From positions 2,836,501 through 2,900,500 of the forward strand of contig NZ_JPON01000001.1 in the NCBI RefSeq assembly GCF_000733935.1: a stretch of DNA of 64,000 nt, given 5' to 3'. Under the pieces are notes generated by a model that made no database searches, was not told where the DNA came from, and worked only from the letters and a program-made list of their open reading frames with translations. This document shows, one piece after another, positions 9,206 to 58,492 of the stretch. The first letter of the stretch is position 1. The number at the start of each line of letters is the position of its first letter. This stretch comes from Methylomarinum vadi. Its GTDB lineage: Bacteria > Pseudomonadota > Gammaproteobacteria > Methylococcales > Methylomonadaceae. Made by a program: the position numbers and the translations under genes.

Positions 9206-9284
9206 AGATTTATATGATCGGTGTTAAAGCGTGTGAGCCTTGAATATAAAATTAAATAAGTCACAATCATACTCTTGTAGTGAG

Positions 9285-9321
9285 GTAGGGCACATAAGCG
9301 AAACGTGGTCCGCCGCATGAA
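9285..9321. repeat. REP-like sequence before the second RAYT relic
   Basis: The pattern GTAGGGcacATAAGCGaaACG...CCGCCGCATGAA resembles the 5' REP at 5506 and sits the same distance before a RAYT start region. The palindrome is decayed. Confidence 0.4.
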
Positions 9322-9339
9322 TTAATAAAACACTCACTT

Positions 9340-9430
9340 AGTTATCGATGCAATCGCATTCCTGGAGGGACTTTTTTATGGTGAATTTGCTTGAACGTCA
9401 GTCTGAATTGTTTGTTGATCATATCCATAT
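9340..9430 (+). pseudogene. Second RAYT relic (5' end only)
   Basis: About 90 bp reading, with one gap, as (S)YRCNRIPGG-FF-VNLLERQSELFVDHI. It is co-linear with the start of the RAYT at 5555 (SYRRNRISGG..FFTVNVLKRKSHLLVE) at both DNA and protein level. Homology stops abruptly near 9430, about 20 bp before the stop codon of the next reverse-strand gene, so the rest was lost when that gene was acquired or by deletion. Confidence 0.6.
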
Positions 9431-9449
9431 ACTCACTAACCGTTTGTTT

Positions 9450-10205: not shown

Positions 10206-10381
10206 ATCTGCGGTCTTATTAGTGATACGGTATCAAAGCGTATATCACGTACCGTTTATTGCCAGGTAAAGGAGGCAATAAATTTCAAAAAACGGTAAAT
10301 TCGCCTTAATAAATTGATATCCATCGGTTAATTTATCTATTACGTGAAACCTAATCATAACCGGATCTTTTACGTTAGAAA

Positions 10382-10425
10382 AGTGGCGGATTCAACAAAC
10401 CAACTGCCCCTGAGTCTCCGCCACT
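10382..10425 (-). terminator. Terminator of the NAD-kinase-like operon (reverse strand)
   Basis: Perfect 9-bp arms AGTGGCGGA (10382-10390) and TCCGCCACT (10417-10425). On the reverse strand the stem is followed by TTTTC. One arm overlaps the end of the coding sequence and the loop is long (26 nt). Confidence 0.5.
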
Positions 10426-11315
10426 CCAATCGTCGTCACCGTACCGGAATTGAAAGCCAGGTAATCGGACTCGATGCCGTCGGAGAAGATCACGCCGTTT
10501 TCCGGCATTTGCGATTCGAGTTTTAACGGTGTGTCCGGGGTGATCGCGCCGAAGACCAGTTCGACGACGGTGGTCTTGCTGGGGAATGGTTCGCGGACGG
10601 TGAATTGCAGGCGGCGTTCGTGCCAGGCGAAGCCGTTATTCAGTTCGTCGGGCATGCTTCCGGCCACGCCGTAGGCGCCGGCTAGGATGGACTGGAACCA
10701 GCCGCTGGAGCCGAAGCCGGTCGAAATGATGATGCCCGACGAGGATTGGTTTTCCCGGCGGCCGTTCCAACTTAGGCTATAGCGGGCCGAGCTATGGCTT
10801 TTCGGGCCGACGAACAGGTCGTTGACCGCCAGCATGCGTTGGCCGTCGTTGGTCTTGGCTTCGGCGAAGGTGATGGTTTTGCAATCGGCCTTGCCGGTCA
10901 GCGTACGGGTCACAGCGTTTTGCAGATCGCCGATTTCGAACGGCAGCAGCTTGCCGTCCCAGCGCTCGGGGTCGGGGTTGATCGCGATAACCGGTTGGCC
11001 GGACAGGTATTTTAAGGTGTTGGCGACCAGCCCGTCCTGGCCGATCACGACGACGATATCGGACGGGCCGAATTGATACTGGGGCAACAGGCGGCGCTCC
11101 AATTGCTGGAAACGGCCCAATGTTTTGAGTATCCGTTCGGCCTCCTGCAGGCGGCGTTGATACAGGTCGTGTTCGACCAGATAATCCCGAGCGTCGACCT
11201 GGTTGTGTTCCAGGTAAAATCGCGCCTGCGGCCAAGTGTTGAAGCGTTCGATCAACTCCTGCAACCGCGTTTGCCGGGTCACCAGAATAAAACGGTATTG
11301 GTTTTTGCCGTTCAT
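10392..11315 (-). CDS. NAD-kinase-like protein
   Basis: A 307-residue protein of the NAD-kinase/diacylglycerol-kinase fold type. After an N-terminal region unlike housekeeping NadK, it has VVVIGQDGLVANTLKYL at about residues 87-103, where NadK carries GGDGT; here the motif reads GQDGL. INPDP follows, then a later ISTGFGSSGW block corresponding to the NadK 'TPTGSTAY' region. The changed GGDGT motif makes true NADP synthesis uncertain. It overlaps the upstream SPFH gene by 4 nt (ATGA), so the two are translationally coupled. The housekeeping nadK is not in the window. Confidence 0.72.
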   Translation of the reverse strand: MNGKNQYRFILVTRQTRLQELIERFNTWPQARFYLEHNQVDARDYLVEHDLYQRRLQEAERILKTLGRFQQLERRLLPQYQFGPSDIVVVIGQDGLVANTLKYLSGQPVIAINPDPERWDGKLLPFEIGDLQNAVTRTLTGKADCKTITFAEAKTNDGQRMLAVNDLFVGPKSHSSARYSLSWNGRRENQSSSGIIISTGFGSSGWFQSILAGAYGVAGSMPDELNNGFAWHERRLQFTVREPFPSKTTVVELVFGAITPDTPLKLESQMPENGVIFSDGIESDYLAFNSGTVTTIGVAETQGQLVC

Positions 11316-12334
11316 GCCCGGCCCGCCTTTTTCAGCATTTGTCCGAACAAGTCAGGAGTGATGTTCAACTCGCCGATCTTACCGGCATTCTGCGCCAAGG
11401 CTTCGAAGGCCATTGCCATCAACTGTTCGGGCTGCATTTTTGCCAGCGCCATCGCTTTCAGGTTCTCCACCGGCAATTCTCGGAAGGCTTTCATCCTGGC
11501 ACTAATCGCGTAGGCTTCGGCATCGGCTTGTTCGCGGCTGTTTTCGGCGTTTAATTCGACCAGTTCCTTGCGCTGGGTTTCGGCGCCGATTTCGGCCTGC
11601 AGGCGTTCGCGTTCGGTCTCGGCCTTGCCGCGCAGAATCGTGCGTTCGTTTTGGATGCGCGATTCTTCGATTTCTTGTTCCTTTTGTTGCACCGACAGTT
11701 CGGTTTGCAGTTCGGCCTCCTTGATCGTGCGTTCCTGCTCGACCGCAGATTTACGCCGATCGTAGATGGCGTCGTCGGCTTCTTTCAAGATGGCTTCCCG
11801 AGCTTCCGCCTCCAAGGCGCGGGCCGTTTCCGGCGTTGGTTGCACGGCGCTAATCGAGACGTCGAGCAGGGCGATACCCAGATCGGTCAGCGGGGATTCC
11901 CCGGTCAGTCGCTGCCGTATCAGCGATACCAGGGACTGGCCCTGTTTCAATGCCTCGCGCAAGGCGGTGGCTTGTATCTTGTTTTGCACGATCGCTTGCA
12001 CGATGCGGATGACTCGATCGGAAAGCTTCAACGGATCTTCCGAGACATAGCTCTGACCGTCGTTTTTCAGATTGAAATTGAGCATCTCGGCCATCTTTTC
12101 CGGTTCGGCGATTCGGTAGGTGATTTGGCCCTGCACCGTCACCGCCTGAAAGTCGGCCGTCAGCAGCTTAAAGATGAATGGCGCTTCCTGGGCATTGACC
12201 GGCACCGCGGCGATCGAAGCGGTGGCATAGTTGTAGAAAAAGCTCAGGCCCTTGCCTTGTTTGCGCACCCGGCCGTCGACTGTCTTTATGACGAAGGTGG
12301 AGGAGTCCGCCTTGAAATATTGTATGCCTAGCAT
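11312..12334 (-). CDS. SPFH/band-7 domain protein
   Basis: A 340-residue SPFH (stomatin/prohibitin/flotillin) protein. The domain covers about residues 10-190 (GKGLSFFYNYATASIAAVPVNAQ at its start). A long charged coiled coil with Glu/Gln/Arg-rich repeats covers about 190-275, and a short Met/Ala-rich tail ends the protein. There is no clear N-terminal membrane helix, unlike HflK/HflC, so it may be a soluble or peripherally bound oligomer. The ribosome binding site GGAGAAAC precedes the ATG. It is first in an operon with the NAD-kinase-like gene and divergent from an NrtR-like regulator. Confidence 0.8.
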   Translation of the reverse strand: MLGIQYFKADSSTFVIKTVDGRVRKQGKGLSFFYNYATASIAAVPVNAQEAPFIFKLLTADFQAVTVQGQITYRIAEPEKMAEMLNFNLKNDGQSYVSEDPLKLSDRVIRIVQAIVQNKIQATALREALKQGQSLVSLIRQRLTGESPLTDLGIALLDVSISAVQPTPETARALEAEAREAILKEADDAIYDRRKSAVEQERTIKEAELQTELSVQQKEQEIEESRIQNERTILRGKAETERERLQAEIGAETQRKELVELNAENSREQADAEAYAISARMKAFRELPVENLKAMALAKMQPEQLMAMAFEALAQNAGKIGELNITPDLFGQMLKKAGRA

Positions 12335-12362
12335 GATGTTTCTCCTGTTTGTGTCTAAAGGT

Positions 12363-12414
12363 CACTTATCAATAAATAGTGTCTTATAGACATAAATATG
12401 TCAAGTTATAAGTG
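12363..12414. promoter_or_regulatory. Putative operator in the divergent SPFH/NrtR-like intergenic region
   Basis: Contains a 13-bp palindrome, TGTCTTATAGACA (12380-12392), nested between inverted arms CACTTAT (12363-12369) and ATAAGTG (12408-12414). It lies in the AT-rich gap between the SPFH gene and the Nudix/winged-helix regulator, where an autoregulated NrtR-type factor would be expected to bind. Confidence 0.5.
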
Positions 12415-12509
12415 TCAAAAAGTCACAAAATGTTTGTCACATCCCTTCGGGCAAGGTAGGCTAGTGTTTCCGCAGGGTGGGGTAGCGCCTTAATCGATCC
12501 CACAAATAC

Positions 12510-13235
12510 ATGACTGAAACAATGGATGAAAAAGAATTTTTAGCGACATACGACAAACGCCAATTCGATAGCCCGCTGCTAACCGTCGATGCGGTGCTGT
12601 TTACTTTCCATAAGGAAGCTCTGAAAGTGTTGTTGGTACAGCGCTCGAATCACCCGGATTTAGGCAAGTGGGGGTTGCCGGGCGGGTTCGTCGATTTGGC
12701 GCAGGACATGACGCTGGAAGATACGGTACTGCGCAAGCTGCGGGAGAAAACCGGCGTCGAGCCGCCTTATCTGGAGCAGTTGCGGACCTTCGGCAATGCC
12801 GAACGGGACAAGCGCGGCTGGTCGGTGACGGTGTGCTATACGGCGTTGATCGCCCATCAGGATTGCGCGACGCATATCGCCACGGTGTCCGATGCACGTT
12901 GGATCGCTATCGATACGGTCGTCGATATGGACTTGGCCTTCGATCATCAAGTTATTATTCACCAGGCCCGCGAACGCCTGAAGCAAAAGGCGTTGTATTC
13001 GATCGTCCCGGCCTATGCGTTGCCGGGAAAATTCACGCTGCCGGAACTGCAACACCTGCATGAGGTGTTGATCGGCAAGCCGTTGCAGAAAAAATCGTTC
13101 CGCCGCCGCATCGAACAGGCTAAGCTGTTGATCGATACCGGCGAAAAACGTTCGGAGGGTGGGCGGCCGGCGACCTTGTATCGCATGAAGGAGGCATCGG
13201 GAAGTTACACCTTCGTGCGTAATCTCGAGCATTGA
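12510..13235 (+). CDS. NrtR-like Nudix-domain transcriptional regulator
   Basis: A 241-residue protein with an N-terminal Nudix domain (about 20-150) and a C-terminal winged helix (about 160-240, ending in RSEGGRPATLYRMKE). This is the architecture of NrtR, which represses NAD-metabolism genes and senses ADP-ribose-type ligands. The Nudix box is degenerate: where catalytic enzymes have REx-xEExG, this protein reads RKL-REKTG (E-to-K at 76 and 80), so hydrolase activity is unlikely and a sensory role is favoured. Divergent from the SPFH/NAD-kinase-like operon with a palindrome between them. An ATG at 12525 is an alternative start. Confidence 0.82.
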   Translation: MTETMDEKEFLATYDKRQFDSPLLTVDAVLFTFHKEALKVLLVQRSNHPDLGKWGLPGGFVDLAQDMTLEDTVLRKLREKTGVEPPYLEQLRTFGNAERDKRGWSVTVCYTALIAHQDCATHIATVSDARWIAIDTVVDMDLAFDHQVIIHQARERLKQKALYSIVPAYALPGKFTLPELQHLHEVLIGKPLQKKSFRRRIEQAKLLIDTGEKRSEGGRPATLYRMKEASGSYTFVRNLEH

Positions 13236-13263
13236 CGGAAGCGACAGAGTCGAGTGCGCAGCG

Positions 13264-13286
13264 TTATCCACAAAAGCTGTGGATAA
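13264..13286. promoter_or_regulatory. Inverted pair of consensus DnaA boxes
   Basis: Two perfect DnaA boxes, TTATCCACA (13264-13272) and its inverse TGTGGATAA (13278-13286), are 5 bp apart in the 293-bp gap between the NrtR-like gene and the glycosylase. An AT-rich stretch follows (13310-13450). Apart from this, the gap holds nothing gene-like. Confidence 0.7.
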
Positions 13287-13528
13287 GTCTGTGTATATGA
13301 TGTCCAAAGCGGGCCTTAATATCCGTTTTTGTTACAGTTTTGTTAAACTGGCTAATAATTATTCAGGATAAAACAATTCATAAAAATCAATTTGTTATGT
13401 TATTTGTTTCCTGTTTTGTTAGCTTTTGGTAAAGAAAATGCCCGATAGTTTCTATTTTGTGTATATCGAAGCTGACGAGTGAGAATTGACATGTCATTTT
13501 TTAAACTGGTTTTGTAGGCCGGGGCGGT

Positions 13529-14047
13529 TTAGAGAAATTGCAGTATCAGCCGCCAAGCGTCGCATTTCTGCGCCAGGTTCATCGCGGCATGGGCCGGACT
13601 GGTAGAAGGCAGGCGGCGATACTGTAGATAGGCGAATTCCTCTCCCAGCATCGGCAATACTTGTTTCTTATAGACTTTCTCCGCCAGCGCGCCGTTAAAG
13701 AAAACCTGTTTGATGGCGGGATGACGCTTAAAGAAGCCGATGAAATCGTTGGTTTTGATCGATTCTTCTGCGATATTGGAATCCAGGCTGCCGCTGCGCT
13801 GGCAACTGTGCAGCACGTCCCAGAGCGCGACGTGGTTGGCCAGTAATAGTTGTTGGCGCTGGCGGTAATCGGCGTCGCCCGGTCCCGAAAACAGCTCCAG
13901 CATGATCGGCCAGAAGGCATTGCGCCGGTGTCCGTAATATTGTTGTTTTTGTAATGAGGCGATACTGGGCATGGAGCCCAATATCACTATTTTCGCTCCG
14001 GCGTCGGCGATCGGCGCGAAGCCTTTTATTTTTGAATCGTCATTCAT
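13529..14047 (-). CDS. Family-6 DNA glycosylase (hypoxanthine/uracil)
   Basis: A protein of 172 residues. The motif ILGSMPSIASLQKQQYYGHRRNAFW is diagnostic of the HDG group (UDG superfamily family 6), base-excision enzymes acting mainly on deaminated adenine. A late STSPAHA block forms the second conserved loop. The start at 14047 was chosen because GTGGAG precedes it; an in-frame ATG at 14080 would add 11 residues. It is divergent from rdgC, with about 77 bp between the start codons. Confidence 0.85.
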   Translation of the reverse strand: MNDDSKIKGFAPIADAGAKIVILGSMPSIASLQKQQYYGHRRNAFWPIMLELFSGPGDADYRQRQQLLLANHVALWDVLHSCQRSGSLDSNIAEESIKTNDFIGFFKRHPAIKQVFFNGALAEKVYKKQVLPMLGEEFAYLQYRRLPSTSPAHAAMNLAQKCDAWRLILQFL

Positions 14048-14124
14048 CTCCACAAGAAACCAATTCAACCCTATATGCAAATTTGCGATAATGCCAAGTT
14101 TTTTTCAGCAGAGTCAATTCATTC

Positions 14125-15033
14125 ATGTGGTTTAAAAATCTAGCCGTCTACCGTTTTACCGAACCTTTCACCACTTCCGTCGATGAGTTCGAGGAAAAAC
14201 TGCAGGAAAAACGCTTTCGTCCGTGCGGCAGCCACGACGAGAGCAGTTTAGGTTGGACTGCGCCGTTAGGAAAGGGGGCGGAACAATTGGTGCATGCCGC
14301 TAACGGTTTTTTCATGGTCGCTCTGAAAAAAGAGGAAAAAGTCGTTCCCGCCGCCGTCGTCAATGAAATGCTGCAGGAAAAAATCGACGACATCGAAGAA
14401 CGGGAGGCGCGCAAGTTGGCGAGGAAGGAACGCACCCGCATCAAGGACGAATTGATTTTCGAATTACTGCCCAAGGCTTTCGCCTTTTCCCGTAAAACCT
14501 ATGCCTATATCGACCCCAAGGGCGGTTGGATCGTGGTCGACGCGGCCGCGGCGAAAAAAGCCGAGGATCTGCTCAGTACGCTGCGGCAATGTTTGGGCTC
14601 GCTGCCGGTGGTGCCATTGAACACGGCGGAAAATCCGGTTGCCATCATGACCGATTGGCTGATGAATCAAACGTCTCCGGGGGACATTAGTATCGAAGAC
14701 GAATGCGAATTGCGATCGCAGTCCGACGAAGGCGCGATCGTGCGTTGCAAACGTCACGATCTGACGTTGCCGGAAATCAAAAATCATTTGGACAACGACA
14801 AGCAGGTGATTAAACTGGCCCTTAACTGGGCCGATCGTTTGTCCTTCTTGCTGGACGAACATCTGGCCGTCAAACGCTTGAAATTTCTCGACTTGATACA
14901 GGACCAAGTGGCTGATATCGATGCGGGGACGGACGTCGAACGTTTCGACGCCGATTTTTCCATCATGACGATGGAGTTGGCCAATTTTTTGCCTCGTCTC
15001 GTCGAACTATTTGGGGGCGAAAATCAGACTTAA
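14125..15033 (+). CDS. rdgC: Recombination-associated protein RdgC
   Basis: A 302-residue protein (E. coli RdgC is 303), beginning MWFKNLAVYRFTEPF as the family does. RdgC forms a ring around duplex DNA, inhibits RecA filament action and is linked to replication restart. The conserved MTDWL, ALNWADRLSFLLDE and KRLKFLD blocks are present. It lies 17 nt upstream of an L,D-transpeptidase gene, possibly co-transcribed, and divergent from the glycosylase gene. Confidence 0.95.
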   Translation: MWFKNLAVYRFTEPFTTSVDEFEEKLQEKRFRPCGSHDESSLGWTAPLGKGAEQLVHAANGFFMVALKKEEKVVPAAVVNEMLQEKIDDIEEREARKLARKERTRIKDELIFELLPKAFAFSRKTYAYIDPKGGWIVVDAAAAKKAEDLLSTLRQCLGSLPVVPLNTAENPVAIMTDWLMNQTSPGDISIEDECELRSQSDEGAIVRCKRHDLTLPEIKNHLDNDKQVIKLALNWADRLSFLLDEHLAVKRLKFLDLIQDQVADIDAGTDVERFDADFSIMTMELANFLPRLVELFGGENQT

Positions 15034-15050
15034 TGACTCGTTGATTAGAT

Positions 15051-16034
15051 ATGTACCTCAGGCCTAGAGCTTTAATTCGCGGATTTCTGTATGGCGCGGC
15101 ATTCGCCGGCATGGCGATGCCGTTATGGGCGGTTACCTTGCCGATGCCCGAGCGCCCGGAAGATAGCCTGATTGGCGATTATCCACATAAAGCCACCTAT
15201 GCCACCGCCAAGCAAGAAGACACGCTGTTGGATATCGCCCGGGAATATGATATCGGCCAAAATGAAATCATCCTGGCCAATCCCGGTGTCGACCGCTGGC
15301 TGCCCGGGGCCGGAACGCAAGTCAGAATTCCGACCAGTCGGTTACTGCCGAACACGCCGCATGAGGGGCTAGTACTGAATTTGCCGGAATTCCGCTTGTA
15401 TTATTATCGTAAAGCGAGCAAGAATCAGCCAGCGACCGTGACGACCCATCCGATCAGTATCGGCCGGGTCGATTGGAATACCCCTTTGGGTAAGACGTAT
15501 ATCAGTGCCAAAACCGAAAATCCGGTATGGATTCCGCCGCAGTCGATCAAGGAGGAACATGCCGCCGATGGCGAGATTTTGCCGGATGTTTATCCTGCCG
15601 GCCCGGACAATCCGCTGGGTCTTTTTGCCTTGCGTCTGGCGATACCCGGTTATCTGATTCACAGCACCAACAAGCCGTTTGGCGTCGGCATGCGTGTCAG
15701 TCACGGCTGCATCCGCATGTATCCGGAAGATATCGAAAAACTTTATCCGGAAATCAAGGTGAAAACACCCGTATACATCGTCAATCAACCCATTAAAGTC
15801 GGTTGGTTTAACGATACGCTGTACATTGAAGTGTATCCCGATCTGGAGGATGACGCGCGCACTTATGAACAAAGGCTGGAGGCGGCGCTGGATTTAATCG
15901 AACAAGCCAATAACGGCAAAATTCCGGTGCTGAATGGCGCCAAGCTCAGGTCTGCTCTCGAAAAAAGCGATGGCATACCGGTCGCCATTTTCGAGCGTCC
16001 CTTCGAGACGGAGGAGTTCGAATTCGAACCATAA
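15051..16034 (+). CDS. L,D-transpeptidase with LysM domain (ErfK/YbiS type)
   Basis: A 327-residue periplasmic enzyme. A signal peptide (about 1-27, ends PLWA) is followed by a LysM peptidoglycan-binding domain (about 47-94: ATAKQEDTLLDIAREY...QVRIPTS), a YkuD catalytic domain (about 106-245) with the active-site signature HSTNKPFG...SHGCIRM, and a C-terminal extension. E. coli ErfK/YbiS/YcfS enzymes of this layout attach the C-terminal lysine of Braun lipoprotein to meso-diaminopimelate. The Lpp-like gene at 16091 ends in lysine and lies next door, which supports that role. Confidence 0.9.
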   Translation: MYLRPRALIRGFLYGAAFAGMAMPLWAVTLPMPERPEDSLIGDYPHKATYATAKQEDTLLDIAREYDIGQNEIILANPGVDRWLPGAGTQVRIPTSRLLPNTPHEGLVLNLPEFRLYYYRKASKNQPATVTTHPISIGRVDWNTPLGKTYISAKTENPVWIPPQSIKEEHAADGEILPDVYPAGPDNPLGLFALRLAIPGYLIHSTNKPFGVGMRVSHGCIRMYPEDIEKLYPEIKVKTPVYIVNQPIKVGWFNDTLYIEVYPDLEDDARTYEQRLEAALDLIEQANNGKIPVLNGAKLRSALEKSDGIPVAIFERPFETEEFEFEP

Positions 16035-16036
16035 AA

Positions 16037-16069
16037 AAAAGCCCGCCGCATCGCTGCAAACGGGCTTTT
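16037..16069 (-). terminator. Rho-independent terminator (reverse strand)
   Basis: Stem AAAAGCCCG/CGGGCTTTT with a 15-nt loop. On the reverse strand it is followed by a run of eight T, so it mainly ends the Lpp-like gene. On the forward strand it may also serve the transpeptidase gene. Confidence 0.75.
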
Positions 16070-16090
16070 GCGGGAATAAGCGGTTCTTGC

Positions 16091-16369
16091 TTATTTCATC
16101 ATGGATTTTTTGAACATACGGTCCAGTTTAGTGTTGGTCTCCTGGGCGTATTGCGCTGCGCGGTTAGCGGCCGCTTCCGCTGCCGCAGCTTTAGCCGCCG
16201 CTTCGGCAGCCGCAGCTTGCGCGCTGGCCGCATCGGATGACGCGGAAGAAATTTGTGATTTCAATGTATCGATTTGCGATTGCAGGTTGTCGATATCGGA
16301 GGTGCTGGCACAACCAGTCATCAGGCCTGCCACTGCGAAGATCGCTGCTAATTTTACGGCTTTCAACAT
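16091..16369 (-). CDS. Lpp/OprI-like alanine-rich outer-membrane lipoprotein
   Basis: A 92-residue murein lipoprotein homologue. Lipobox MTGC gives C20. Heptad coiled coil covers residues 25-45 (DIDNLQSQIDTLKSQI). An Ala-rich helix (48-75) built on AAAAEAAA repeats follows, and the C-terminus KLDRMFKKSMMK ends in lysine, as needed for covalent linkage to peptidoglycan. The start at 16369 follows an AAGGAAG site; the longer upstream frame adds a charged non-signal stretch and was rejected. It is flanked on both sides by L,D-transpeptidase genes. Confidence 0.85.
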   Translation of the reverse strand: MLKAVKLAAIFAVAGLMTGCASTSDIDNLQSQIDTLKSQISSASSDAASAQAAAAEAAAKAAAAEAAANRAAQYAQETNTKLDRMFKKSMMK

Positions 16370-16467
16370 GTTATCTTCCTTATTTTTATCAGAAATGAAA
16401 TTTATAATATAAACCAAAGTTTAAATCCCACTTAAATTCTGCCCTGTTTTTTGGACAGTTTCCAGTA

Positions 16468-17016
16468 TTATTTTATTTCCACCCTCGTTCCCTTCTTTAA
16501 GTATCGGCTCAAGCGGTCTATTTGTTCATTCGTCAACGCGATGCAGCCATGGGTCCAATTCATCAATTTATGTATTTGTTTATCCGCTTCGCCTAACCCA
16601 TGAATCCCGATTTGTCCACCTAATACGGTGTTTTGCGGCGGCGTCTTTCCCGACTCATGCGCCGCCAGGATTTTTTCGTAAGTGGGGCGAGTGATCAATC
16701 CCCAGGCCAGGCCTTCCTCGGCATTATGCCTGTTAGGGTAGTTGAAGCCAAAAAAACGGTAATAAGGACTCTTGTTGTTGATCCAGGCAATCCGGAATTT
16801 TCCTAACGGCGTAACATCATCGCCGACGTGGGTTTTGAAGCCGGAGCCATTGCGACCGATGGCGATATTATCGAAAACTTTTAGCGTTTTATTTCCTTGT
16901 TTGACCTGTAGCTGTAATTTTTGCGTGTCCACCAGTATCCAAATGTCCTCCGCCCAAGAGTTCGATGAAAATAAAACACCTAATAAAATCCCCGCCAACA
17001 ACCCTTTTCCCAACAT
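16468..17016 (-). CDS. Small YkuD L,D-transpeptidase
   Basis: A 182-residue periplasmic protein. The signal peptide (1-22, ends NSWA) is followed by one YkuD domain (residues 24-182) with catalytic MNWTHGCIALT. It has no LysM. Small stand-alone YkuD proteins of this type (YafK/YnhG-like) act in peptidoglycan 3-3 cross-linking or amidase-like removal of Lpp, so the direction of its reaction cannot be told from sequence. It lies upstream of the Lpp-like gene on the same strand with a 98-nt gap, and divergent from pgm. Confidence 0.85.
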   Translation of the reverse strand: MLGKGLLAGILLGVLFSSNSWAEDIWILVDTQKLQLQVKQGNKTLKVFDNIAIGRNGSGFKTHVGDDVTPLGKFRIAWINNKSPYYRFFGFNYPNRHNAEEGLAWGLITRPTYEKILAAHESGKTPPQNTVLGGQIGIHGLGEADKQIHKLMNWTHGCIALTNEQIDRLSRYLKKGTRVEIK

Positions 17017-17066
17017 AAAACTCTACAAATCGTTAAAAATTTGGTGTACTTTACAGCTACCGTTAA

Positions 17067-18722
<1,656 letters not shown>

Positions 18723-50494: not shown

Positions 50495-51946
50495 CTATAG
50501 CGCCGGACTTTCAATATTCAAAGCGGCATTCGCGCCGTTTTCTTCCTTGCTTTTGGCATGCATGGTGTTTTTCTCGATCGGGTCGTCCTCGCTGAGCCAG
50601 ACCAGCAAGTCGTAATAGCTGCGGATGTTTTCGACATAGCGTACCGGTTCGCGCCCTCTGGCGTAGCCGTGCTTGGTCTTTTGATACCATTTTTTCTTGC
50701 TCAATAACGGCAGGCTATGCTTGACATCCATCCATTTGTCCGGATTTCCGCCGCGTTGTTGGGTCAAGATTCTAGCGTCCTCCAAATGGCCGTAACCCAC
50801 GTTGTAAGAGGCCAAGGCGAACCAGGTGCGGTCAGGTTCCGCGATACGGGCGGGAATTTTTTTCAAGCGCTGTTTGAAATAGAGTGCGCCGCCGTTAATG
50901 CTCTGCAGTGGGTCGGTGCGGTCTTTAATTTTCAATTGCTTGGCGGTGCCGTGAGTGAGCATCATCACTCCCTTGACGCCGGTTGGCGACGTGGCTTCTT
51001 CGTTCCAATGGGATTCCTGATAGCCGATGGCTGCCAGCAGGCGCCAATCGAGATTATGTTTTTCGGCCGCCGATCTGAAGAATTCAATATAAGCGGGTAA
51101 ACGGTCCTTGATATGTTGGCGGAATTTACAATTGCCGACATAGTTCAAATTGTTGGTATGGCCGTAATGTTTTTCCAGCAGGTTTTGTAAGGTATTGTCT
51201 TTTTTGATTTTGTCGAAAAACTTGACCACTTCATCATACAGAGAATTGTCTCTGGATGGGGGAAGAGCCCAAGCCAATTGGCGCGGCTCGGTCAGGTCGA
51301 AAGCGATATTCAGCCGGGGATAGAAACTGCGGATTACGGCGGCTTGTTGCGAATCTGCGATCGTGTAATCGATCAGCCCTTCGTTGACCAAATACAACAG
51401 GCCGTCGGTGTCGAGTTCGCTGTTAACGTTCCACTCCAGTTGCGGATGCTTTTTCTTCAGAGATTTTAGCGTGGCTTCATGACTGGTCCCTTTAACGACT
51501 TCGATAATGCCATGGCTTAAGTCGCGGATCCGTTTCGGACGTTTTTTGCCCGATCGGTAAATGATTTGCTCGGTGATGGTTTGGTAAGCCGGGGCAAAAC
51601 GCATTCGATGTTTGCGTTCCTTGGTGATGGTCAGGCCGGCCGCGGCGATATCCGCTTGGCCTGAGGAAATTTGCTTCAGAATTCCCTCGAAGGTGTTTGG
51701 CACGATGAAATGGGCTTCCACGCCCAAATAGTTGGCGAATAGCGTGATTAGATCGTATTCTAAGCCGGTATAGCCTTCCGGGCCCTCGTAATAAGTTGTC
51801 GGGGCCTGACGGGTTAAAACGTGTAAGGCGCCTTCATGTTTGATTTGTTCCAGTCTGGAAAAGCCTAGGTGAGTTTTTGTATTGTCGCAAGAGGTTAACA
51901 GTATGAAGCACAAACTTCCTATGAGAGCTTTAACAATTGCTGGCAA
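50495..51946 (-). CDS. mltF: Membrane-bound lytic transglycosylase F
   Basis: A 483-residue lipoprotein. Lipobox LLTSC with Asp at +2 (CDN). Residues about 40-260 form a periplasmic solute-binding (SBP_bac_3) domain, where MltF binds muropeptides; residues about 285-440 form an SLT domain with catalytic glutamate in GYQESHWNEEA and AYNVGYGH. The start is TTG at 51946, the only in-frame start that keeps the lipoprotein signal; it lies 5 nt after the pgi stop, suggesting coupling. Asp +2 would retain it in the inner membrane by the E. coli Lol rule, unlike E. coli MltF. Confidence 0.88.
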   Translation of the reverse strand: MPAIVKALIGSLCFILLTSCDNTKTHLGFSRLEQIKHEGALHVLTRQAPTTYYEGPEGYTGLEYDLITLFANYLGVEAHFIVPNTFEGILKQISSGQADIAAAGLTITKERKHRMRFAPAYQTITEQIIYRSGKKRPKRIRDLSHGIIEVVKGTSHEATLKSLKKKHPQLEWNVNSELDTDGLLYLVNEGLIDYTIADSQQAAVIRSFYPRLNIAFDLTEPRQLAWALPPSRDNSLYDEVVKFFDKIKKDNTLQNLLEKHYGHTNNLNYVGNCKFRQHIKDRLPAYIEFFRSAAEKHNLDWRLLAAIGYQESHWNEEATSPTGVKGVMMLTHGTAKQLKIKDRTDPLQSINGGALYFKQRLKKIPARIAEPDRTWFALASYNVGYGHLEDARILTQQRGGNPDKWMDVKHSLPLLSKKKWYQKTKHGYARGREPVRYVENIRSYYDLLVWLSEDDPIEKNTMHAKSKEENGANAALNIESPAL

Positions 51947-51950
51947 TGTG

Positions 51951-53585
51951 TCACCGTAATTTCTTGTAATAATTAATCAGGGCATTGGTTGAGCTGTCAT
52001 GGCTATTGATCTCTTTATCTTCTTTTAGTTCAGGCAGAATCTTCTTGGCCAAGACCTTGCCCAATTCTACCCCCATCTGATCGAACGAATTTATGTTCCA
52101 AATCACGCCTTGAACAAAAATTTTATGTTCATAGAAGGCGATTAGGGTTCCGAGTGTTTTTGGAGTCAGTTTTTTAAAAAGGAAGGAGTTGGAGGGTTTG
52201 TTGCCGGGGAAGATTTTAGAAGCGACCAGTATTTGGTCTTGGTTGTCTTCAGCGCTTAAATCTTGGCGGACTTCCTCCTCGGTTTTGCCCTTCATCAACG
52301 CTTCCGGTTGTGCCAGGAAATTGGAAATGAGGATGTCGTGATGTTCGGGCAGGGGATGTTGGCTTTGCGCGGGCGCCAGAAAATCGCATGGGACCAGTTT
52401 TGTGCCTTGGTGCATCAATTGATAGAAAGCGTGTTGTCCGTTTGTGCCGGGTTGGCCCCAAATGATCGGACCGGTGCTGTAATCGACCTTGGCGCCATTA
52501 AAATCGATCGATTTGCCATTGCTTTCCATGTCGCCTTGCTGCATATAAACGGGAAAGTAAAATAACGATTGATCGTACGGCAGGATTGCATGGGATTCCG
52601 CCGAGAAAAAATTGTTATACCAGATTCCCAGCAAGGCCATGATGACCGGGATATTGTTTTCATAAGGAGTCTGGCGAAAGTGCATGTCGGCTTCGAAGGC
52701 CCCTTGCAGCAGTTCTTCGAAGTTATCCATCCCTATATAAAGGGCGATAGATAAACCGACTGCGGACCATAATGAAAACCGGCCCCCGACCCAGTTCCAG
52801 AATTCAAACATGTTGTTTGGGTCGATGCCGAATTTAATGACGTTTTCGCGGTGGGTCGAAATGGCGGCAAAGTGTTTTTTGATGGCGGATTCGTCTTTGA
52901 CTTTCTCCAAAAACCAGCGCCGCGCCGAATTGGCGTTGGTCATGGTTTCCTGGGTATTGAAAACCTTGGACGCCACTAAAAAAAGCGTGGTCTCGGGATC
53001 GATTTTTTTCAATGCAGCGACTATATCGGCTTGGTCGACATTGGAAACGAAATGGATTTTCAAGTCATCCCGGGCATACGGAGACAAGGCGTGACAGACC
53101 ATCTTGGGGCCTAAGTCAGAGCCGCCGATACCGATATTTACGATATCGGTGATCGCTTTGCCGGTATAGCCTTTCCATGCCCCGGACCTCACTTGTTCGG
53201 AGAATATCCGCATCTTCTCCAGCTCCCGTTTGATCTGCGGCATGACGTCTTTTCCATCGACGTGCACTGGGTTGCTTCCTCTGTTGCGCAAGGCCGTGTG
53301 TAATACCGAGCGTCTCTCGGTGGTGTTGATCATGACACCATTGAACATGTCTTCCGTTTTTTGTTTGAGGCCGGCTAACTCCGTTAATTTAAGCAGGAGG
53401 GGGAGTGTGTGTTCGTCGATTAGATTTTTGGAATAATCGAATAGTATGTCGTTAAAAACCTGTGAAAATTTACTGAAGCGGTCCGTGTCAGTTTTGAAAG
53501 CCTCTTTTATGGAGAAGCTGGCTGCGATATCACGCTGATGTTGCGCAATCGCATTCCATTCAACAGAGTTTGTTAATTTAGACAT
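51951..53585 (-). CDS. pgi: Glucose-6-phosphate isomerase
   Basis: A 544-residue enzyme interconverting glucose-6-P and fructose-6-P. Signatures: [12 protein letters not shown], the catalytic block [14 protein letters not shown], and the C-terminal [13 protein letters not shown]. The start at 53585 ([10 protein letters not shown]) is the family's usual N-terminus; the frame upstream is 21 residues of non-conserved sequence. Upstream of mltF, 4 nt apart. Members of ribulose-monophosphate methanotrophs use this step in sugar turnover. Confidence 0.95.
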
Positions 53586-53904: not shown

Positions 53905-54498
53905 ATGAGCAAAAAACACATCTTAAGAAATGGTTTCCTGGGTCTTCTGGGATTGATTTTTTCATCAGCCCTGTGGGCTCACGGCGGTGCTGCGGGTACC
54001 GATACAGACCAATGTAAATTCGAATTAGAGCCAGGCCATTGGTTGCATTACACTGCATATCAACCTAAAGCTTATCCGGCCGAAGAATTCTGCGGCAATT
54101 TGCCAGACTTGAATACACTGACTCAATTGGTATTCGACTATCAAGATATTCGTTACCGCGATAGAAGGATAGAATTCGAAGTCACCAAAGAGCCCGAAGG
54201 CAAGCGCGTATTTTTTCAAGAAGCGGCAAAACATCCTTCAGGCACGGTCGTTCTGTCTCTGCCAAATGGTATAACTGAAGCGGGCAAATATCTGATCCAC
54301 ATTACGTTACTACAGGATAACGGCGAAAGACTCGATGCTCACATGGGATTCAAAGCGGGTTCCGGTCAACCGGTAAGTTCCGGTAGCATGGGATTGTATG
54401 CCTTGATAGCTCTCGCTGCCCTGTATGTCTTCTATCTGTCTAATGAAGGCTTCAAACGTAAAGTCGATGAATTAATCGGAAAAGCTAAAGACGCTTAA
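53905..54498 (+). CDS. Periplasmic CopC-like protein with C-terminal membrane anchor
   Basis: A 197-residue protein, first of a three-gene copper unit. The signal peptide (1-25) ends SALWA and predicted cleavage leaves histidine 26 as residue 1 of the mature protein, the start of a HG-x pattern like His-brace copper proteins. Later residues include H45, H48, C37, C63, and a CopC-like end: GITEAGKYLIHITLLQDNGERLDAHMGF, with D144 and H146 in the D-x-H position used by CopC. A single transmembrane helix (about 162-180) and a basic tail anchor it. The CopC link is pattern-based; no full-length family was recognised. A strong AGGAAGG site fixes the start. Confidence 0.72.
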   Translation: MSKKHILRNGFLGLLGLIFSSALWAHGGAAGTDTDQCKFELEPGHWLHYTAYQPKAYPAEEFCGNLPDLNTLTQLVFDYQDIRYRDRRIEFEVTKEPEGKRVFFQEAAKHPSGTVVLSLPNGITEAGKYLIHITLLQDNGERLDAHMGFKAGSGQPVSSGSMGLYALIALAALYVFYLSNEGFKRKVDELIGKAKDA

Positions 54499-54527
54499 CC
54501 ACCTTATTCAACCAAGGTAACAATAAA

Positions 54528-56273
54528 ATGCAGAAACATCCCCTAAGTATTCTTTTGGGAGCGGCTGCGCTGCTGATGCCGGTTATGGCATCGGCAGCGG
54601 TTGGCTTGCCAAAAACAGCAAAAATTGATCGTGGAGAAGTTGAAGCACCCTGTAATGTGAATAATCCTGAGTGGCGCGAAGCGCACACGATCGAGGGTGT
54701 GAAAATTCAGGAGTCGTTACGCTGTAGCCCCGATAACCCTGCTGATATTGCCGCGGAGGTAAAAGGCACTAATAACATCTCAATGGAAACATTGATGAAG
54801 ACTTATTATGCCGCTGATGCAATTACCAAAAAAAATGATATGGATGGGGATGGTGACCCTGATCTGATTATTATCAAGTTGGAAGTAACCGAATTGAATG
54901 GCCATTCGCCGGATTTTGCCGGATTGGTTCCGACTTTCGATATTGCGCCAGGAATACAGCCGGGCATGTGGGTGTTTGCCCCTAAATCCCGCGGTATGGC
55001 TACTAACAGTTTTGTAGGCACCGATGCCAATCCGTTGTTGCGTGCGCCTTCTCCGCCAATTAGGGTCGAGCAGGGCGATATCGTCTGGATTCAGCTGGAA
55101 AATAGCCACTATTTCCCGCATACGATCCATTTGCATGGGGTCGATCACCCTTGGGTAGATAGCTCTGGTGAAGGCAACGACGGCGTGCCCCAAACCAGTG
55201 ACAAATTTGTTCTACCTGGACAAAGTAAAACTTACGAAATCAGACCGAGAGTGCCCGGTACTTTTGTTTATCACTGCCATGTACAGACGCACGTGCATTT
55301 GGCGATGGGCTTGGTCGGCATGTTCATTGTCGAAGAAAATCGTCCGAACAACTGGGTGCAAACGTTCAATGTTGGCGGTGGAGAGGTTAGGCATCCTTCC
55401 AAAGCAATTTTGGAAAAGTATGACAGTGAATACGACCTTCACTATCATGCGATGGATAAGGAATTACATAATATAATTCAGCAATACAACGACCCTCGTT
55501 TAATCGCGAAAAAAATGAATCGTGAATATGACATGACCGATTCAACCGAGGATTATCACACGCTGAATGGCCGCTCTTTCCCGTATACCTTGCGGGAATC
55601 GTTGATTGTGACCGAACCGAACCAGAATATTAAAGTAAGGATGTTCAACAGTACTGGCGAGACGCTGGCTATGCATACTCATGGCCACAAAGGTACGATC
55701 ACGCATTATGATGGTGTCGAACATAATCCTAGCGCACAGATAATGCGTGATGTCTATAATCTAGCGCCGGCCCAACGTAACGATTTATTAATTAGCACCA
55801 AGGACGACGGTTTACATAGCTATGGCCAAGGTATTTGGATTTTCCACGATCATCGAGAAAAAGGGATTACCACCGACGGCATGAATCCGGGCGGTAATGT
55901 CAGCGCGATCGTCTATAAAAAATACCTGAACGAAGAAGGCATGCCGATGGGTATAGGCGAAAGTCCGGAAAATTTGTTCACCAAGGCTTTTCAACAACGT
56001 AAACTGCCGGTTTGGCAAGATATCGATCCATGGAATAGCTTAGGTGAAGCCGATGCAACCGGATATGTCGCTCCTCCTGCCGGCGTGCCGATAGCCGTCG
56101 AGGAACCTCCGAAATCCTTAAGCCAGCTTTACCAAGAAAAGGCTGCTAAGGGAGGCAGTAATACTTTCGGCAATTTTATATTCGGCTTGATTCTCGGTAT
56201 CGCAGCCTATTTGTTGGTGGTTAACCGTGAAAAGCTCATGGCGATGATGTCGTCAAATAAAGGAGGGAATTGA
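54528..56273 (+). CDS. Two-domain multicopper oxidase, membrane-anchored
   Basis: A 581-residue oxidase. Signal peptide (1-23, ends ASA). Residues 104-112 (DMDGDGDPD) look like a Ca2+-binding loop. Cupredoxin domain 1 (about 115-270) has type-1 ligands H198, C250, H255, M260 and trinuclear ligands H201/H203 and H249/H251 (HTIHLHG...YHCHVQTHVHLAM). Domain 2 (about 350-480) has HTHGHK and IFHDHREKG but no cysteine. Type-1 copper in domain 1 only is the 'type C' two-domain arrangement. A C-terminal helix (about 549-567) anchors it, unlike most MCOs. The substrate is unknown; copper or iron handling is likely. Confidence 0.85.
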   Translation: MQKHPLSILLGAAALLMPVMASAAVGLPKTAKIDRGEVEAPCNVNNPEWREAHTIEGVKIQESLRCSPDNPADIAAEVKGTNNISMETLMKTYYAADAITKKNDMDGDGDPDLIIIKLEVTELNGHSPDFAGLVPTFDIAPGIQPGMWVFAPKSRGMATNSFVGTDANPLLRAPSPPIRVEQGDIVWIQLENSHYFPHTIHLHGVDHPWVDSSGEGNDGVPQTSDKFVLPGQSKTYEIRPRVPGTFVYHCHVQTHVHLAMGLVGMFIVEENRPNNWVQTFNVGGGEVRHPSKAILEKYDSEYDLHYHAMDKELHNIIQQYNDPRLIAKKMNREYDMTDSTEDYHTLNGRSFPYTLRESLIVTEPNQNIKVRMFNSTGETLAMHTHGHKGTITHYDGVEHNPSAQIMRDVYNLAPAQRNDLLISTKDDGLHSYGQGIWIFHDHREKGITTDGMNPGGNVSAIVYKKYLNEEGMPMGIGESPENLFTKAFQQRKLPVWQDIDPWNSLGEADATGYVAPPAGVPIAVEEPPKSLSQLYQEKAAKGGSNTFGNFIFGLILGIAAYLLVVNREKLMAMMSSNKGGN

Positions 56274-56275
56274 TA

Positions 56276-57169
56276 ATGGTTAAAATATTGTCAATCGCTG
56301 CATTAGTTATGACGCTGGTCGCTCCTGGCGTTCATGCTAAGGAATTCCAGGACCACTCCAATATGATGGATCACGGTGACGGCCATTTGATGGATATGGA
56401 CGGTGCCATGGTAATGGGGCAGAATACCGATAAGCTACCTGGAGGCTGCGATAAAATCGCCGCAACCGAAGAGATTACCGTGCATGCCGGTCATAAATAT
56501 GCCGAAAAATTCCCTGGACGTATGTTCGCCTTCGATACTCAGGAGTGGCAATTCGAACCGTGTACTAAATTGACCGTGCATTTTATTAATGATGATGAAA
56601 TCAGGCACCAATGGATGATGCACGGATTGCCGAAATATATGTATCCTAAGGGTATGTTCCATCTTGAAGTCACCGGGCCTGGCCAAGTGTCCGGTACCTT
56701 GATTTTCCCTCCTGGCGATAAAACCTATCTCGTGCACTGCGATATTTCGCAGCACATGGAAAAAGGTATGAAAGCACAGATAAAAATCGGCGAGGGTAGC
56801 GGCGATTTACCGAGTATTCCAGGTATTACCGCCAATGTCATTCAAGATGACTACAGTCAGAGTATCCCTGACTTGACTCCGACGGCGCCGGCAGGTGCGA
56901 CAACGCCAGCTGGAAGTGATATCGTTCCGGGAACAGATGGTAGTGCTACGAATGGTTCATTTGTTTCCGGTATCATGGTTATCGGATTGGCGGTAGGTTT
57001 TGTATTGGCTCCTTTATTAGCTAAAAAATTTAAAGGGATGACCTTTGGCGAGGGAGTGGCTTACGTTTTCGAGCTATTGTCTCAAGCTATAGGCATGATT
57101 ATTAAGCTGTTAAGTGGCGTGATCAATAAGTTCCTATCCAAAAAAAGCATACAACTACCTGATAAATAA
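56276..57169 (+). CDS. Met/His-rich cupredoxin with membrane anchor
   Basis: A 297-residue periplasmic protein. Signal peptide 1-21 (ends VHA). Residues 25-50 are rich in Met, His and Asp (HSNMMDHGDGHLMDMDG), typical of copper-acquiring tails. Cupredoxin domain (about 60-175) has candidate type-1 ligands H111, C155, H160 and M165 (YLVHCDISQHMEKGM). A Pro/Ala/Thr-rich linker (about 200-225) leads to a transmembrane helix (230-250) and a second amphipathic helix. ATG 56276 follows AGGAGGG; a TTG two codons earlier is less likely. Probably passes electrons or copper to the adjacent MCO. Confidence 0.85.
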   Translation: MVKILSIAALVMTLVAPGVHAKEFQDHSNMMDHGDGHLMDMDGAMVMGQNTDKLPGGCDKIAATEEITVHAGHKYAEKFPGRMFAFDTQEWQFEPCTKLTVHFINDDEIRHQWMMHGLPKYMYPKGMFHLEVTGPGQVSGTLIFPPGDKTYLVHCDISQHMEKGMKAQIKIGEGSGDLPSIPGITANVIQDDYSQSIPDLTPTAPAGATTPAGSDIVPGTDGSATNGSFVSGIMVIGLAVGFVLAPLLAKKFKGMTFGEGVAYVFELLSQAIGMIIKLLSGVINKFLSKKSIQLPDK

Positions 57170-57184
57170 ATACGTTGAGCCGAG

Positions 57185-57223
57185 AAAAGCCCTCTGAGAC
57201 GACTGGTTTCAGGGGGCTTTTTT
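57185..57223 (+). terminator. Terminator of the three-gene copper unit
   Basis: A 13-bp stem AAAAGCCCTCTGA/TCAGGGGGCTTTT (one G-T) followed by T-rich sequence, just after the cupredoxin stop. It marks the unit as a transcript of three genes. Confidence 0.85.
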
Positions 57224-57236: not shown

Positions 57237-57671
57237 ATGCATGAAGAGTCTTTGTCTCTATTGGGTTTATTTGGCAGCGCATTCATATCGTCGACCATAG
57301 CGCCCGGCGGTTCCGAAGCGGTTTTAGCCTACATGGTTTCGATTGGCGATAAGCCGCTTCAATTGCTGATTCTTGTGGCAACGATCGGCAATACGTTGGG
57401 GGCTTTGACTACTTGGTGGTTAGGTAGTTGGGCGGCGACAAAATACCCGTTGGAAAAAGTGTTGTCCGATGACAAAAGGAAATCAATAAACACGGTCAAA
57501 AAATGGGGCGGATGGGCGTTGCTTTTTTCCTGGTTGCCGGTCGTTGGCGATGGTCTGTGTTTTGCCGGAGGCTGGCTCAGATTGTCATTAGCCACTTCCG
57601 TGGTGGCAATATTGCTGGGGAAAGCCGTGAGGTATACTGTAGTTGCTTACGCCTCGGCTAGTTTGATTTAA
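57237..57671 (+). CDS. Small YqaA/VTT-like membrane protein
   Basis: A 144-residue protein of the YqaA/VTT (DedA-related) kind. Glycine-rich re-entrant motif SSTIAPGGSEAVLAYM, central GNTLGALTTWWLG, and the late VGDGLCFAGGWL block correspond to the VTT pattern. The ATG at 57237 is chosen over a TTG at 57225 that overlaps the terminator stem. Homologues are linked to phospholipid flipping or cation stress. It lies on the same strand but after the copper terminator. Confidence 0.8.
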   Translation: MHEESLSLLGLFGSAFISSTIAPGGSEAVLAYMVSIGDKPLQLLILVATIGNTLGALTTWWLGSWAATKYPLEKVLSDDKRKSINTVKKWGGWALLFSWLPVVGDGLCFAGGWLRLSLATSVVAILLGKAVRYTVVAYASASLI

Positions 57672-57718
57672 CACGCGGAGTTTTTAATTAACCAACGCCA
57701 TACAAGAAAGAGGTGAAA

Positions 57719-58492
57719 ATGTTTTCATTGCCGCATTTTCCGGAAGTTGGGGTGCAGGCGGAACACCGCAAAAGAGATTACTTTATTGCGCTGTTCACCT
57801 TTATTACAACGGCCATTTGCTTGATAACCGATTCGTTTGCACCACTTGAGATGCAATATGTGTTAGGGGTTTGCGGTTGGACGTTTTTGCTTGCTTTTTT
57901 GTGGGGAGAATGTAAATACGTCAGGGTGCAAGTTCTGGTCGCCGTGGTATTTGCGACGCTAGGTGAAAATTTTGCTTCGCTCTTTATGCGGGGGTATATT
58001 TACCGTTTCGAAAACCTGCCATTTTATGTTCCGGCCGGCCATGGATTGGTTTATTTGACAGCGGTCGCGCTGGGGCGCTCTGGATTATTTCAACAATACG
58101 CGAGAGTGATTGCGTTATTTGTCGTTTTATTGTGCGGAGCTTGGGCGTTATGGGGCATCACCGGGGCTGAACGGAAAGACGAGATCGGTGTCGTTTTGTA
58201 TGGTGTGTTTTTGCTGTACTTATTTAAGGGGCGTTCACCAATGGTGTATCTGGCGGCTTTTTTTATCACCAGTTGGTTGGAATTGGTTGGCACCACGGCC
58301 GGAACCTGGGCCTGGGCCGAGGTCGATCCAGCCTCCGGGCTAGCCCAGGGTAATCCGCCTAGTGGGGTTGCGGCTTGGTATTGTTTGGTCGATGCGGTGG
58401 CATTAAATGGAGCGGCCTTGTTTTTTAAAGGACTGGAGTATTTGAAAAGGCAAAGCTTTAAAAAAAACATCAAAGTTAACATCAATGATTGA
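57719..58492 (+). CDS. Unknown seven-helix membrane protein
   Basis: A 257-residue protein with about seven helices (first about 22-42, last about 210-228). The motif RGYIYRFENLPFYVPAGHGLVYL and the loop WAEVDPASGLAQGNPPSG are striking but were not matched to a family. It has a short charged cytoplasmic C-terminus (KRQSFKKNIK). It follows the VTT protein by 47 nt and is probably co-transcribed. The link to the copper unit is positional only. Confidence 0.65.
   Translation: MFSLPHFPEVGVQAEHRKRDYFIALFTFITTAICLITDSFAPLEMQYVLGVCGWTFLLAFLWGECKYVRVQVLVAVVFATLGENFASLFMRGYIYRFENLPFYVPAGHGLVYLTAVALGRSGLFQQYARVIALFVVLLCGAWALWGITGAERKDEIGVVLYGVFLLYLFKGRSPMVYLAAFFITSWLELVGTTAGTWAWAEVDPASGLAQGNPPSGVAAWYCLVDAVALNGAALFFKGLEYLKRQSFKKNIKVNIND

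Follow-up and report, generated by a model that had tools for sequence, protein, structure and literature searches.

Our analysis of a 64,000-nt stretch of the Methylomarinum vadi genome (contig NZ_JPON01000001.1, positions 2,836,501-2,900,500; the window) revealed three codirectional genes, P1, P2 and P3, that encode a PmoD/AmoD-family copper protein, a multicopper oxidase (MCO) and a type 1 (T1) cupredoxin, all membrane-anchored (Table 1). In several bacterial lineages this triad is located inside operons for copper membrane monooxygenases (CuMMOs), and across genomes the oxidase co-occurs with CuMMO genes. Because the triad is sited beside or inside CuMMO operons in several bacteria, we link it to these enzymes; whether it is indeed an accessory module of CuMMOs (particulate methane monooxygenase, pMMO, ammonia monooxygenase, AMO, or hydrocarbon monooxygenase), acting in membrane-bound copper loading or redox tuning, we regard as evenly poised. 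How copper and electrons reach CuMMOs, the enzymes that drive methane and ammonia oxidation in nature, is a question of long standing; with genes beside pmoCAB and PmoD in several lineages, this oxidase and this cupredoxin can be put forward as testable candidates for the missing CuMMO partners. The initial annotation of the window had described a membrane-anchored three-protein copper module of a methanotroph, which stands, the genome being of methanotroph type and carrying pmoCAB (G000:C1, ~2.098 Mb); the module is also conserved in synteny beyond this strain, but the link to CuMMO operons had been missed.

Linkage to CuMMO Operons

A search of the GTDB genomes using the MCO yielded 557 relatives, the best 80 of which were kept as loci. 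Of these 80 loci, 62 have PmoD just ahead of the MCO and 79 a cupredoxin (78 under a strict spacing rule); pmoB was found in 16, in 15 of them upstream on the MCO strand. The pmoB-linked loci include five from Cycloclasticus, six of Binatota type (one titled Desulfurellaceae) and four from unplaced or mislabelled metagenome-assembled genomes (MAGs), and they are scattered over several parts of the MCO tree (built by a quick method and rooted at the midpoint). The gene order pmoC-pmoA-pmoB-pmoD-MCO-cupredoxin occurs in Cycloclasticus, in Binatota-type records and in other lineages; at two loci (L016 and L029) the three genes preceding the triad were named by Pfam as CuMMO subunits C, A and B. 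Within the order-level sample (121 genomes, searched for pmoB, MCO and P1), pmoB, P1 and the MCO gene are contiguous by coordinates in nine genomes of families f7 (the Cycloclasticus family) and f8; such contiguity was not found in G030, G059, G066, G070 and G078, although pmoB and the MCO are present there. In families f2 (G032) and f3 (G026), pmoC-pmoA follows the module on the same strand after a few kb, the intervening genes including one on the opposite strand, and at loci L045 and L103 PmoD precedes pmoC and the MCO follows pmoB with no PmoD between them.

Two observations on individual loci can be added. L045, with its CuMMO operon and MCO-cupredoxin pair, comes from a MAG titled Klebsiella pneumoniae, a title that is very likely wrong. 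At L068 (4293-13179), codirectional genes run in the order pmoD-pmoC-pmoA-open reading frame-pmoB-pmoD-MCO-cupredoxin, followed by a pyrroloquinoline quinone (PQQ) dehydrogenase, so that two PmoDs flank pmoCAB; L070, L078, L080, L085 and L089 are arranged as L068 through the cupredoxin.

The surroundings of the triad also relate the window to CuMMO loci. The gene order in the window is a presumptive tadA, an MltF-like gene, phosphoglucose isomerase (PGI), P1-P2-P3 and a VTT-domain gene. In three Cycloclasticus loci (L033, L035, L040) and in the f8 genome (L016) the order is tadA, mltF, pmoCAB, P1-P2-P3 and VTT, with 67-70% identity to the window genes for tadA and 50-59% for mltF. Three further Cycloclasticus-type loci (L038, L039, L041) have tadA and mltF and neither pmoCAB nor PGI at the site, and neither flank gene was found at L034, L036 and L037. 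Given the common tadA and mltF flanks, the window locus corresponds in position to a CuMMO operon; the comparison is compatible with either direction of change, loss of pmoCAB at the window locus or its gain at the Cycloclasticus locus.

Co-occurrence with CuMMO Genes and Synteny

In the order-level sample, pmoB was found in 99 genomes, the MCO in 113 and P1 in 116; pmoB and the MCO occurred together in 98, pmoB alone in one, the MCO alone in 15, and neither in seven. Of the 106 order genomes among the matches listed, 66 have P1 immediately before the MCO, including 58 of the 59 that lie outside the window's family. The arrangement thus extends beyond the strain, which is what the initial annotation had proposed to check. 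In the genome itself and 40 relatives, matches were obtained to P1 in 40 of 41 and to P2 and P3 in all 41, the sole genome without a P1 match (G009) being 77% complete. Where the MCO has departed, P1 and the cupredoxin are often still paired, and many relatives hold a second MCO-cupredoxin pair without PmoD.

At the class level (321 genomes, MCO threshold E up to 1e-60), the MCO and pmoB were found in nine genomes each: seven have both, two the MCO only, two pmoB only, and 310 neither (Fisher p 2e-11, or 5e-7 without three genomes of the same order, relatedness being uncorrected in both values). PmoD was detected in 11 of the 321 genomes, including all nine with pmoB. In the Cycloclasticus family the MCO is present in 12 of 13 pmoB-positive genomes and in none of the five pmoB-negative ones (p 7e-4). 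One of these five (G087) has pmoC and was therefore kept outside the CuMMO-free set; in the four genomes lacking both pmoB and pmoC (99, 99, 89 and 80% complete), the MCO and PmoD were likewise undetected at the thresholds used.

Several apparent exceptions concern pmoB itself. When 43 named-record genomes from the best 80 of the 557 relatives were re-searched, pmoB was present in 32, and seven of the remaining 11 showed pmoC, often as fragments at contig ends. A search for pmoC in 20 MCO-positive, pmoB-negative entries (17 distinct genomes) was positive for 12 entries (10 distinct), and gave no match in G008, G176, G295, G028 (= G480), G461, G467 and G468. As pmoC occurs in many pmoB-less genomes, several times as a contig-end fragment, the absence of pmoB often reflects a gap in the assembly.

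A number of observations weigh against a role tied to CuMMOs. The only pmoB of the window's genome lies ~0.79 Mb from the module, and within the window's family only 8 of 47 genomes among the matches listed have P1 immediately before the MCO; the other 39 do not, two of them (G020, G115) having the reversed order with the MCO directly upstream of P1. The 15 order genomes with an MCO and no pmoB match are all drafts of at least 60 contigs. G008, a 70-contig draft from the window's family rated 100% complete, has the MCO and P1 and no match to pmoA, pmoB or pmoC; nor were such matches found in G176, a single contig of 99% completeness that carries the triad immediately after the operon of a caa3-type cytochrome c oxidase (L125, G176:C1:1435000-1454000, 8548-17367). 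G160 and G344 have a CuMMO and PmoD and no MCO match, Nitrosomonas loci contain the MCO-cupredoxin pair with neither PmoD nor amo nearby, and the four CuMMO-free Cycloclasticus-family genomes may be a single clade. Finally, the motif Cx7MxHxnC of PmoD/AmoE proteins that form a CuA site is not present in P1, which has Cx7HWLHxnC, and therefore a CuA site is not expected. The exceptions formed by G176, G008, G160, G344, Nitrosomonas and G298 (see below) mean that the tie to CuMMO is not strict; that it is strong is very probable, the association itself being well supported. The module may serve other copper oxidases too.

Two of these genomes deserve separate mention. G176 is an exception to the statement, in the accessible part of PMC6189053, that every genome with PmoD has a CuMMO. 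G298 gave neither a pmoB nor an MCO match despite a PmoD match, a PmoD-like stretch on G298:C11 (L142, E 1e-26 with the class-level profile) that was not recovered as a called gene. As to the possible single clade of the four CuMMO-free Cycloclasticus-family genomes, the accessible text of PMC12510462 describes the cultivated Cycloclasticus clade as devoid of short-chain alkane genes.

PmoD-Family Protein P1

P1 belongs to the PmoD/AmoD family, as follows from its profile match, its fold match to PDB entry 6cpd and its two invariant cysteines. Already in a single-sequence search against PDB the top match of P1 was the PmoD structure 6cpd (E=0.0042), and a 13-row profile matched the same entry with E=9.7e-22, the runner-up having E=0.23. 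The AlphaFold2 (AF2) model of P1 (predicted local distance difference test score, pLDDT, 76; helices at residues 3-23 and 159-179) retrieved 6cpd at rank 1 in Foldseek (E=3.6e-10), and VIA-align gave Z 17.1 with a root-mean-square deviation of 1.9 over 115 residues, the next entry reaching Z 9.0. Cys37 and Cys63 are invariant across the 13 alignment rows. Hydropathy and the AF2 model agree on a signal-type N-terminus, a periplasmic domain and a single C-terminal transmembrane (TM) helix; the C-terminal hydrophobic segment recurs in 78 of the 80 PmoDs. P1 thereby resembles the PmoD/AmoD/AmoE proteins (Methylocystis PmoD, 6cpd; accessible part of PMC6189053), which share the signal-type N-terminus, a periplasmic cupredoxin-like domain, the two invariant cysteines and the C-terminal TM segment, occur with a CuMMO and in certain members adjoin MCO genes. 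It differs from their described motifs (Cx7MxHxnC, Cx8MHxnC, Cx8MxnC and Cx9HxnC): the window reads CKFELEPGHWLH, i.e., Cx7HxxH within Cx7HWLHxnC. Among the other PmoDs at the sampled loci, Cx8M is seen in Cycloclasticus, and Cx9H in Binatota and further groups.

The description of P1 as CopC-like in the initial annotation proved wrong. P1 matched no Pfam family up to E=1 and no NCBIfam model, and a CopC identity was rejected, since the CopC Pfam domain is absent and both profile and fold favour PmoD. P1 shares with CopC and copABCD systems a periplasmic copper context, but CopC chains align with its model at TM-scores of ~0.3 when normalised to the query and 0.5 when normalised to the target, PmoD being far better. 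GbpA and CopC rows rank far below PmoD in the structure comparisons, and of the His-brace that the initial annotation had thought possible, as in a reading as a lytic polysaccharide monooxygenase-like protein, only the conserved N-terminal histidine is seen: a histidine directly follows the signal-type segment in 12 of 13 alignment rows.

This residue, His26 (window 53980-53990), lies in an HGG, HRD or HGD context in 71 of the 80 PmoDs and could be an additional copper ligand; an AHGE-type stretch is also found near PmoB N-terminal starts. The genome has a second PmoD-like gene (L024, G000:C1:1844000-1856000, 5494-9496), upstream of a region that by eye resembles CRISPR-associated genes. A pmoD near a CRISPR region is also mentioned in the accessible text of PMC6688271.

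Multicopper Oxidase P2 and Cupredoxin P3

Complete copper-ligand sets had been noted in two of the three proteins, and alignments bear this out for both the oxidase and the cupredoxin. P2 matches Cu-oxidase Pfam families, and in a 15-row alignment the T1 ligands His198 and Cys250 and the trinuclear ligands H201, H203, H249, H251, H383, H385, H440 and H442 are invariant, M260 being conserved in at least 90% of rows. By motif-based assignment, P2 fits a two-domain MCO with eight trinuclear histidines and T1 in domain 1 only (type C). The earlier description as a two-domain oxidase is correct as far as it goes, while an additional N-terminal segment was overlooked; it contains an invariant DxDGDGDPD loop (residues 104-112, 15-row alignment) that resembles a calcium-binding loop. 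All three scanned copper-ligand motifs are complete in 85 of 87 MCO homologues, and the same number (85 of 87) have a C-terminal hydrophobic segment.

The canonical T1 histidine of MCOs sits at Cys+5. In the T1 loop of the homologues, a histidine at Cys+7 and a methionine at Cys+10 are present in 87 of 87 sequences and a histidine at Cys+5 in 65 of 87. In P2 (residues 250-260) the second T1 histidine could be H255 at Cys+5 or H257 at Cys+7, and the ligand has possibly shifted to Cys+7 in this MCO family; the AF2 model of P2 (pLDDT 62.1) is too weak for T1 geometry.

The best PDB matches of P2 by both sequence and fold are a metagenome laccase (2zwn) and the Nitrosomonas europaea blue copper oxidase (3g5w), which share the two cupredoxin domains and the full trinuclear histidine set at 23% identity in fold alignments; P2 is set apart by the N-terminal segment with the calcium loop-like DxDGDGDPD, the C-terminal membrane anchor and the histidine at Cys+7. 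Assignment to CueO or CopA was rejected on NCBIfam cut-offs (copper_res_A 38.6 of 478.95 bits, CueO 29 of 525 bits). The MCO of Nitrosopumilus maritimus with a C-terminal cupredoxin domain (9cck) likewise joins an oxidase and a cupredoxin in an ammonia oxidiser, but is a single archaeal protein and distant in sequence (E ~1e-10).

P3 has the T1 cupredoxin ligand set His, Cys-x4-His-x4-Met, with H111, C155, H160 and M165 invariant in a 14-row alignment, and the set is complete in 84 of 85 homologues, 81 of 85 having a C-terminal hydrophobic segment. The homologues have a median of 3 His and 5 Met in the Met/His-rich N-terminal stretch, and the tails reach 20 His per 60 residues in Nitrosomonas. 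Matches of P3 to Pfam and NCBIfam were weak only, and assignment to CopI (NF047895) was rejected at 15.8 bits against a cut-off of 200. CopI, a copper-tolerance protein, also has a Met/His-rich N-terminus. P3 shares with it a single periplasmic T1 cupredoxin domain and differs in being membrane-anchored and paired with an MCO.

Relation to Published Systems

Statements in this section refer to the accessible portions of the cited papers. A copper protein anchored in the membrane and associated with CuMMO is how PmoD was described (Fisher, 2018; PMC6189053); its members with Cx8MxnC are commonly near MCO genes, among others, CuA formation is limited to members with Cx7MxHxnC, disruption of an operon pmoD in Methylosinus trichosporium impairs growth with copper, and whole cells show more activity than isolated pMMO. 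In the genome paper of Kam1 (PMC6688271), pmoD is beside an MCO, and the Methylococcus capsulatus homologue MCA2130, also beside an MCO, is down-regulated without copper; MCA2130 is likened here to P1 by the description in that paper rather than by sequence comparison. The main text of the microarray paper PMC4831470 does not mention MCA213, MCA212, pmoD or multicopper in its accessible part, and the copper response of MCA2130 therefore rests on the statement in PMC6688271. The Binatota paper PMC8262859 reports pmoD in 5 of 11 genomes, its accessible text containing no mention of multicopper or cupredoxin; in the accessible text of PMC12510462 on Cycloclasticus the word pmoD does not occur, but phmo A, B, C, D appear in a legend, and that of PMC9445010 mentions neither PmoD nor multicopper. 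In Nitrososphaera viennensis, copper limitation strongly increases two MCOs of the lineage that have an additional blue copper domain (PMC7785015).

The juxtaposition of PmoD and an MCO is thus already published (PMC6189053, PMC6688271). The initial annotation named no described system of this composition, which agrees with our finding no characterised complex of PmoD, MCO and cupredoxin in the literature searched, but it did not mention the published pmoD-MCO adjacency. No publication treating the three genes as one unit, or reporting an MCO and cupredoxin in CuMMO operons, was found in a search that left most subscription papers, preprints and supplements outside.

Proposed Role

As an accessory module of CuMMOs, PmoD, the MCO and the cupredoxin would act together at the outer face of the inner membrane. 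The Met/His-rich tail and T1 site of the cupredoxin may take up Cu(I), which the MCO would oxidise to Cu(II) with O2, directly or via the cupredoxin, and PmoD could then hand copper to the periplasm-facing copper sites of the CuMMO or maintain their loading. We infer that the three proteins interact physically with one another and with the CuMMO, that Cu(I) is the substrate of the MCO, and likewise the direction of copper or electron flow; this copper-loading mechanism we would give about as much credence as doubt. A wider proposition has two parts: that PmoD, the membrane-bound MCO and the cupredoxin form a conserved periplasmic copper-redox partner of CuMMOs across bacterial phyla, partly explaining why purified pMMO has lower activity than cells, and that the window locus is what remains of the site where a pmoCAB-pmoD-MCO-cupredoxin operon once stood. 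That both hold together is possible yet doubtful.

The main rival to copper loading is an electron transfer chain, in which the cupredoxin would pass electrons on to PmoD and the CuMMO, taking them from a donor such as cytochrome c or a PQQ alcohol dehydrogenase, and the MCO would be an O2-reducing side branch draining surplus electrons. The PQQ dehydrogenase codirectional with the cupredoxin at the Binatota locus L068, the caa3-type oxidase preceding the G176 triad and the ordinary T1 ligand set Cx4Hx4M of P3 are consistent with such a chain. However, P1 has no CuA motif, the very His-rich tails of the P3 family (up to 20 His in 60 residues) fit copper binding better than shuttling, and an O2-reducing oxidase wastes reductant, so we consider the chain unlikely. 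Less probable still is general periplasmic copper detoxification by a CueO/CopA-like oxidase and a CopI-like cupredoxin, retained by chance in copper-rich CuMMO organisms: the weak similarity of P3 to CopI (15.8 bits), the second, PmoD-less pairs in many relatives, the Nitrosomonas pairs distant from amo and the lack of a CuMMO match in G176 point that way, while the repeated siting inside CuMMO operons of distant lineages and the rarity of the MCO in the class (9/321, 7 of those 9 pmoB-positive) argue against it.

It is very improbable that the MCO serves in the catabolism of some small, reactive compound made around the CuMMO (e.g., hydroxylamine or nitrite) with the cupredoxin as electron partner: the chains of the archaeal 9cck are indeed named copper-containing nitrite reductase, but the MCO has all eight trinuclear histidines, and no nitrogen-metabolism genes were noticed at the listed, partly annotated loci. 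Nitrite reductases carry a type 2 site, unlike the eight-histidine trinuclear centre. The module also occurs in organisms with alkane-type CuMMOs (Cycloclasticus; accessible text of PMC12510462) as well as in methanotroph genomes, and the rise of the N. viennensis MCOs under copper limitation (PMC7785015, in part) points to copper handling and against a catabolic role.

Locus Layout and Neighbouring Genes

The layout given in the initial annotation was confirmed by the gene calls and a Kyte-Doolittle scan: the intergenic gaps are 29 nt (P1-P2) and 2 nt (P2-P3), each protein has an N-terminal signal-type hydrophobic segment, and C-terminal hydrophobic segments are found at residues 160-178 (P1), 547-565 (P2) and 230-248 with a second stretch at 261-279 (P3), all called from hydropathy (for P1 also from AF2 helices) rather than by dedicated predictors. 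The strong terminator also holds, none of 200 shuffles being equally stable, although it is absent from the output of a simple terminator scanner.

Table 1. Features of the copper module and its surroundings in the window.
Feature	Position	Strand	Remarks
MltF-like gene (SBP_bac_3 + SLT)	50495..51946	-	flank common to the Cycloclasticus pmo locus
Phosphoglucose isomerase (PGI)	51951..53585	-	occupies the place of pmoCAB at the matching Cycloclasticus site
P1, PmoD/AmoD-family membrane-anchored copper protein, 197 aa	53905..54498	+	signal-type N-terminus, His26, Cys37, Cys63, Cx7HWLHxnC, C-terminal TM
P2, membrane-anchored MCO, 581 aa	54528..56273	+	complete T1 and trinuclear motifs
P2, extra parts			additional N-terminal segment bearing two Cys and the DxDGDGDPD loop; T1 in first cupredoxin domain (type C arrangement)
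P3, membrane-anchored T1 cupredoxin, 297 aa	56276..57169	+	Met/His-rich N-terminal stretch; ligands H111, C155, H160, M165
Intrinsic terminator behind P3	57183..57223	+	-28.3 kcal/mol, z -7.57
Short VTT-domain (DedA-like) membrane protein	57237..57671	+	behind the terminator
Multi-TM protein, no known family	57713..58492	+	neighbour in several relatives

The VTT-domain (DedA-like) protein and the familyless multi-TM protein (window 57237-58492) recur downstream of the triad, the former being directly behind the cupredoxin at 45 of 79 loci elsewhere.

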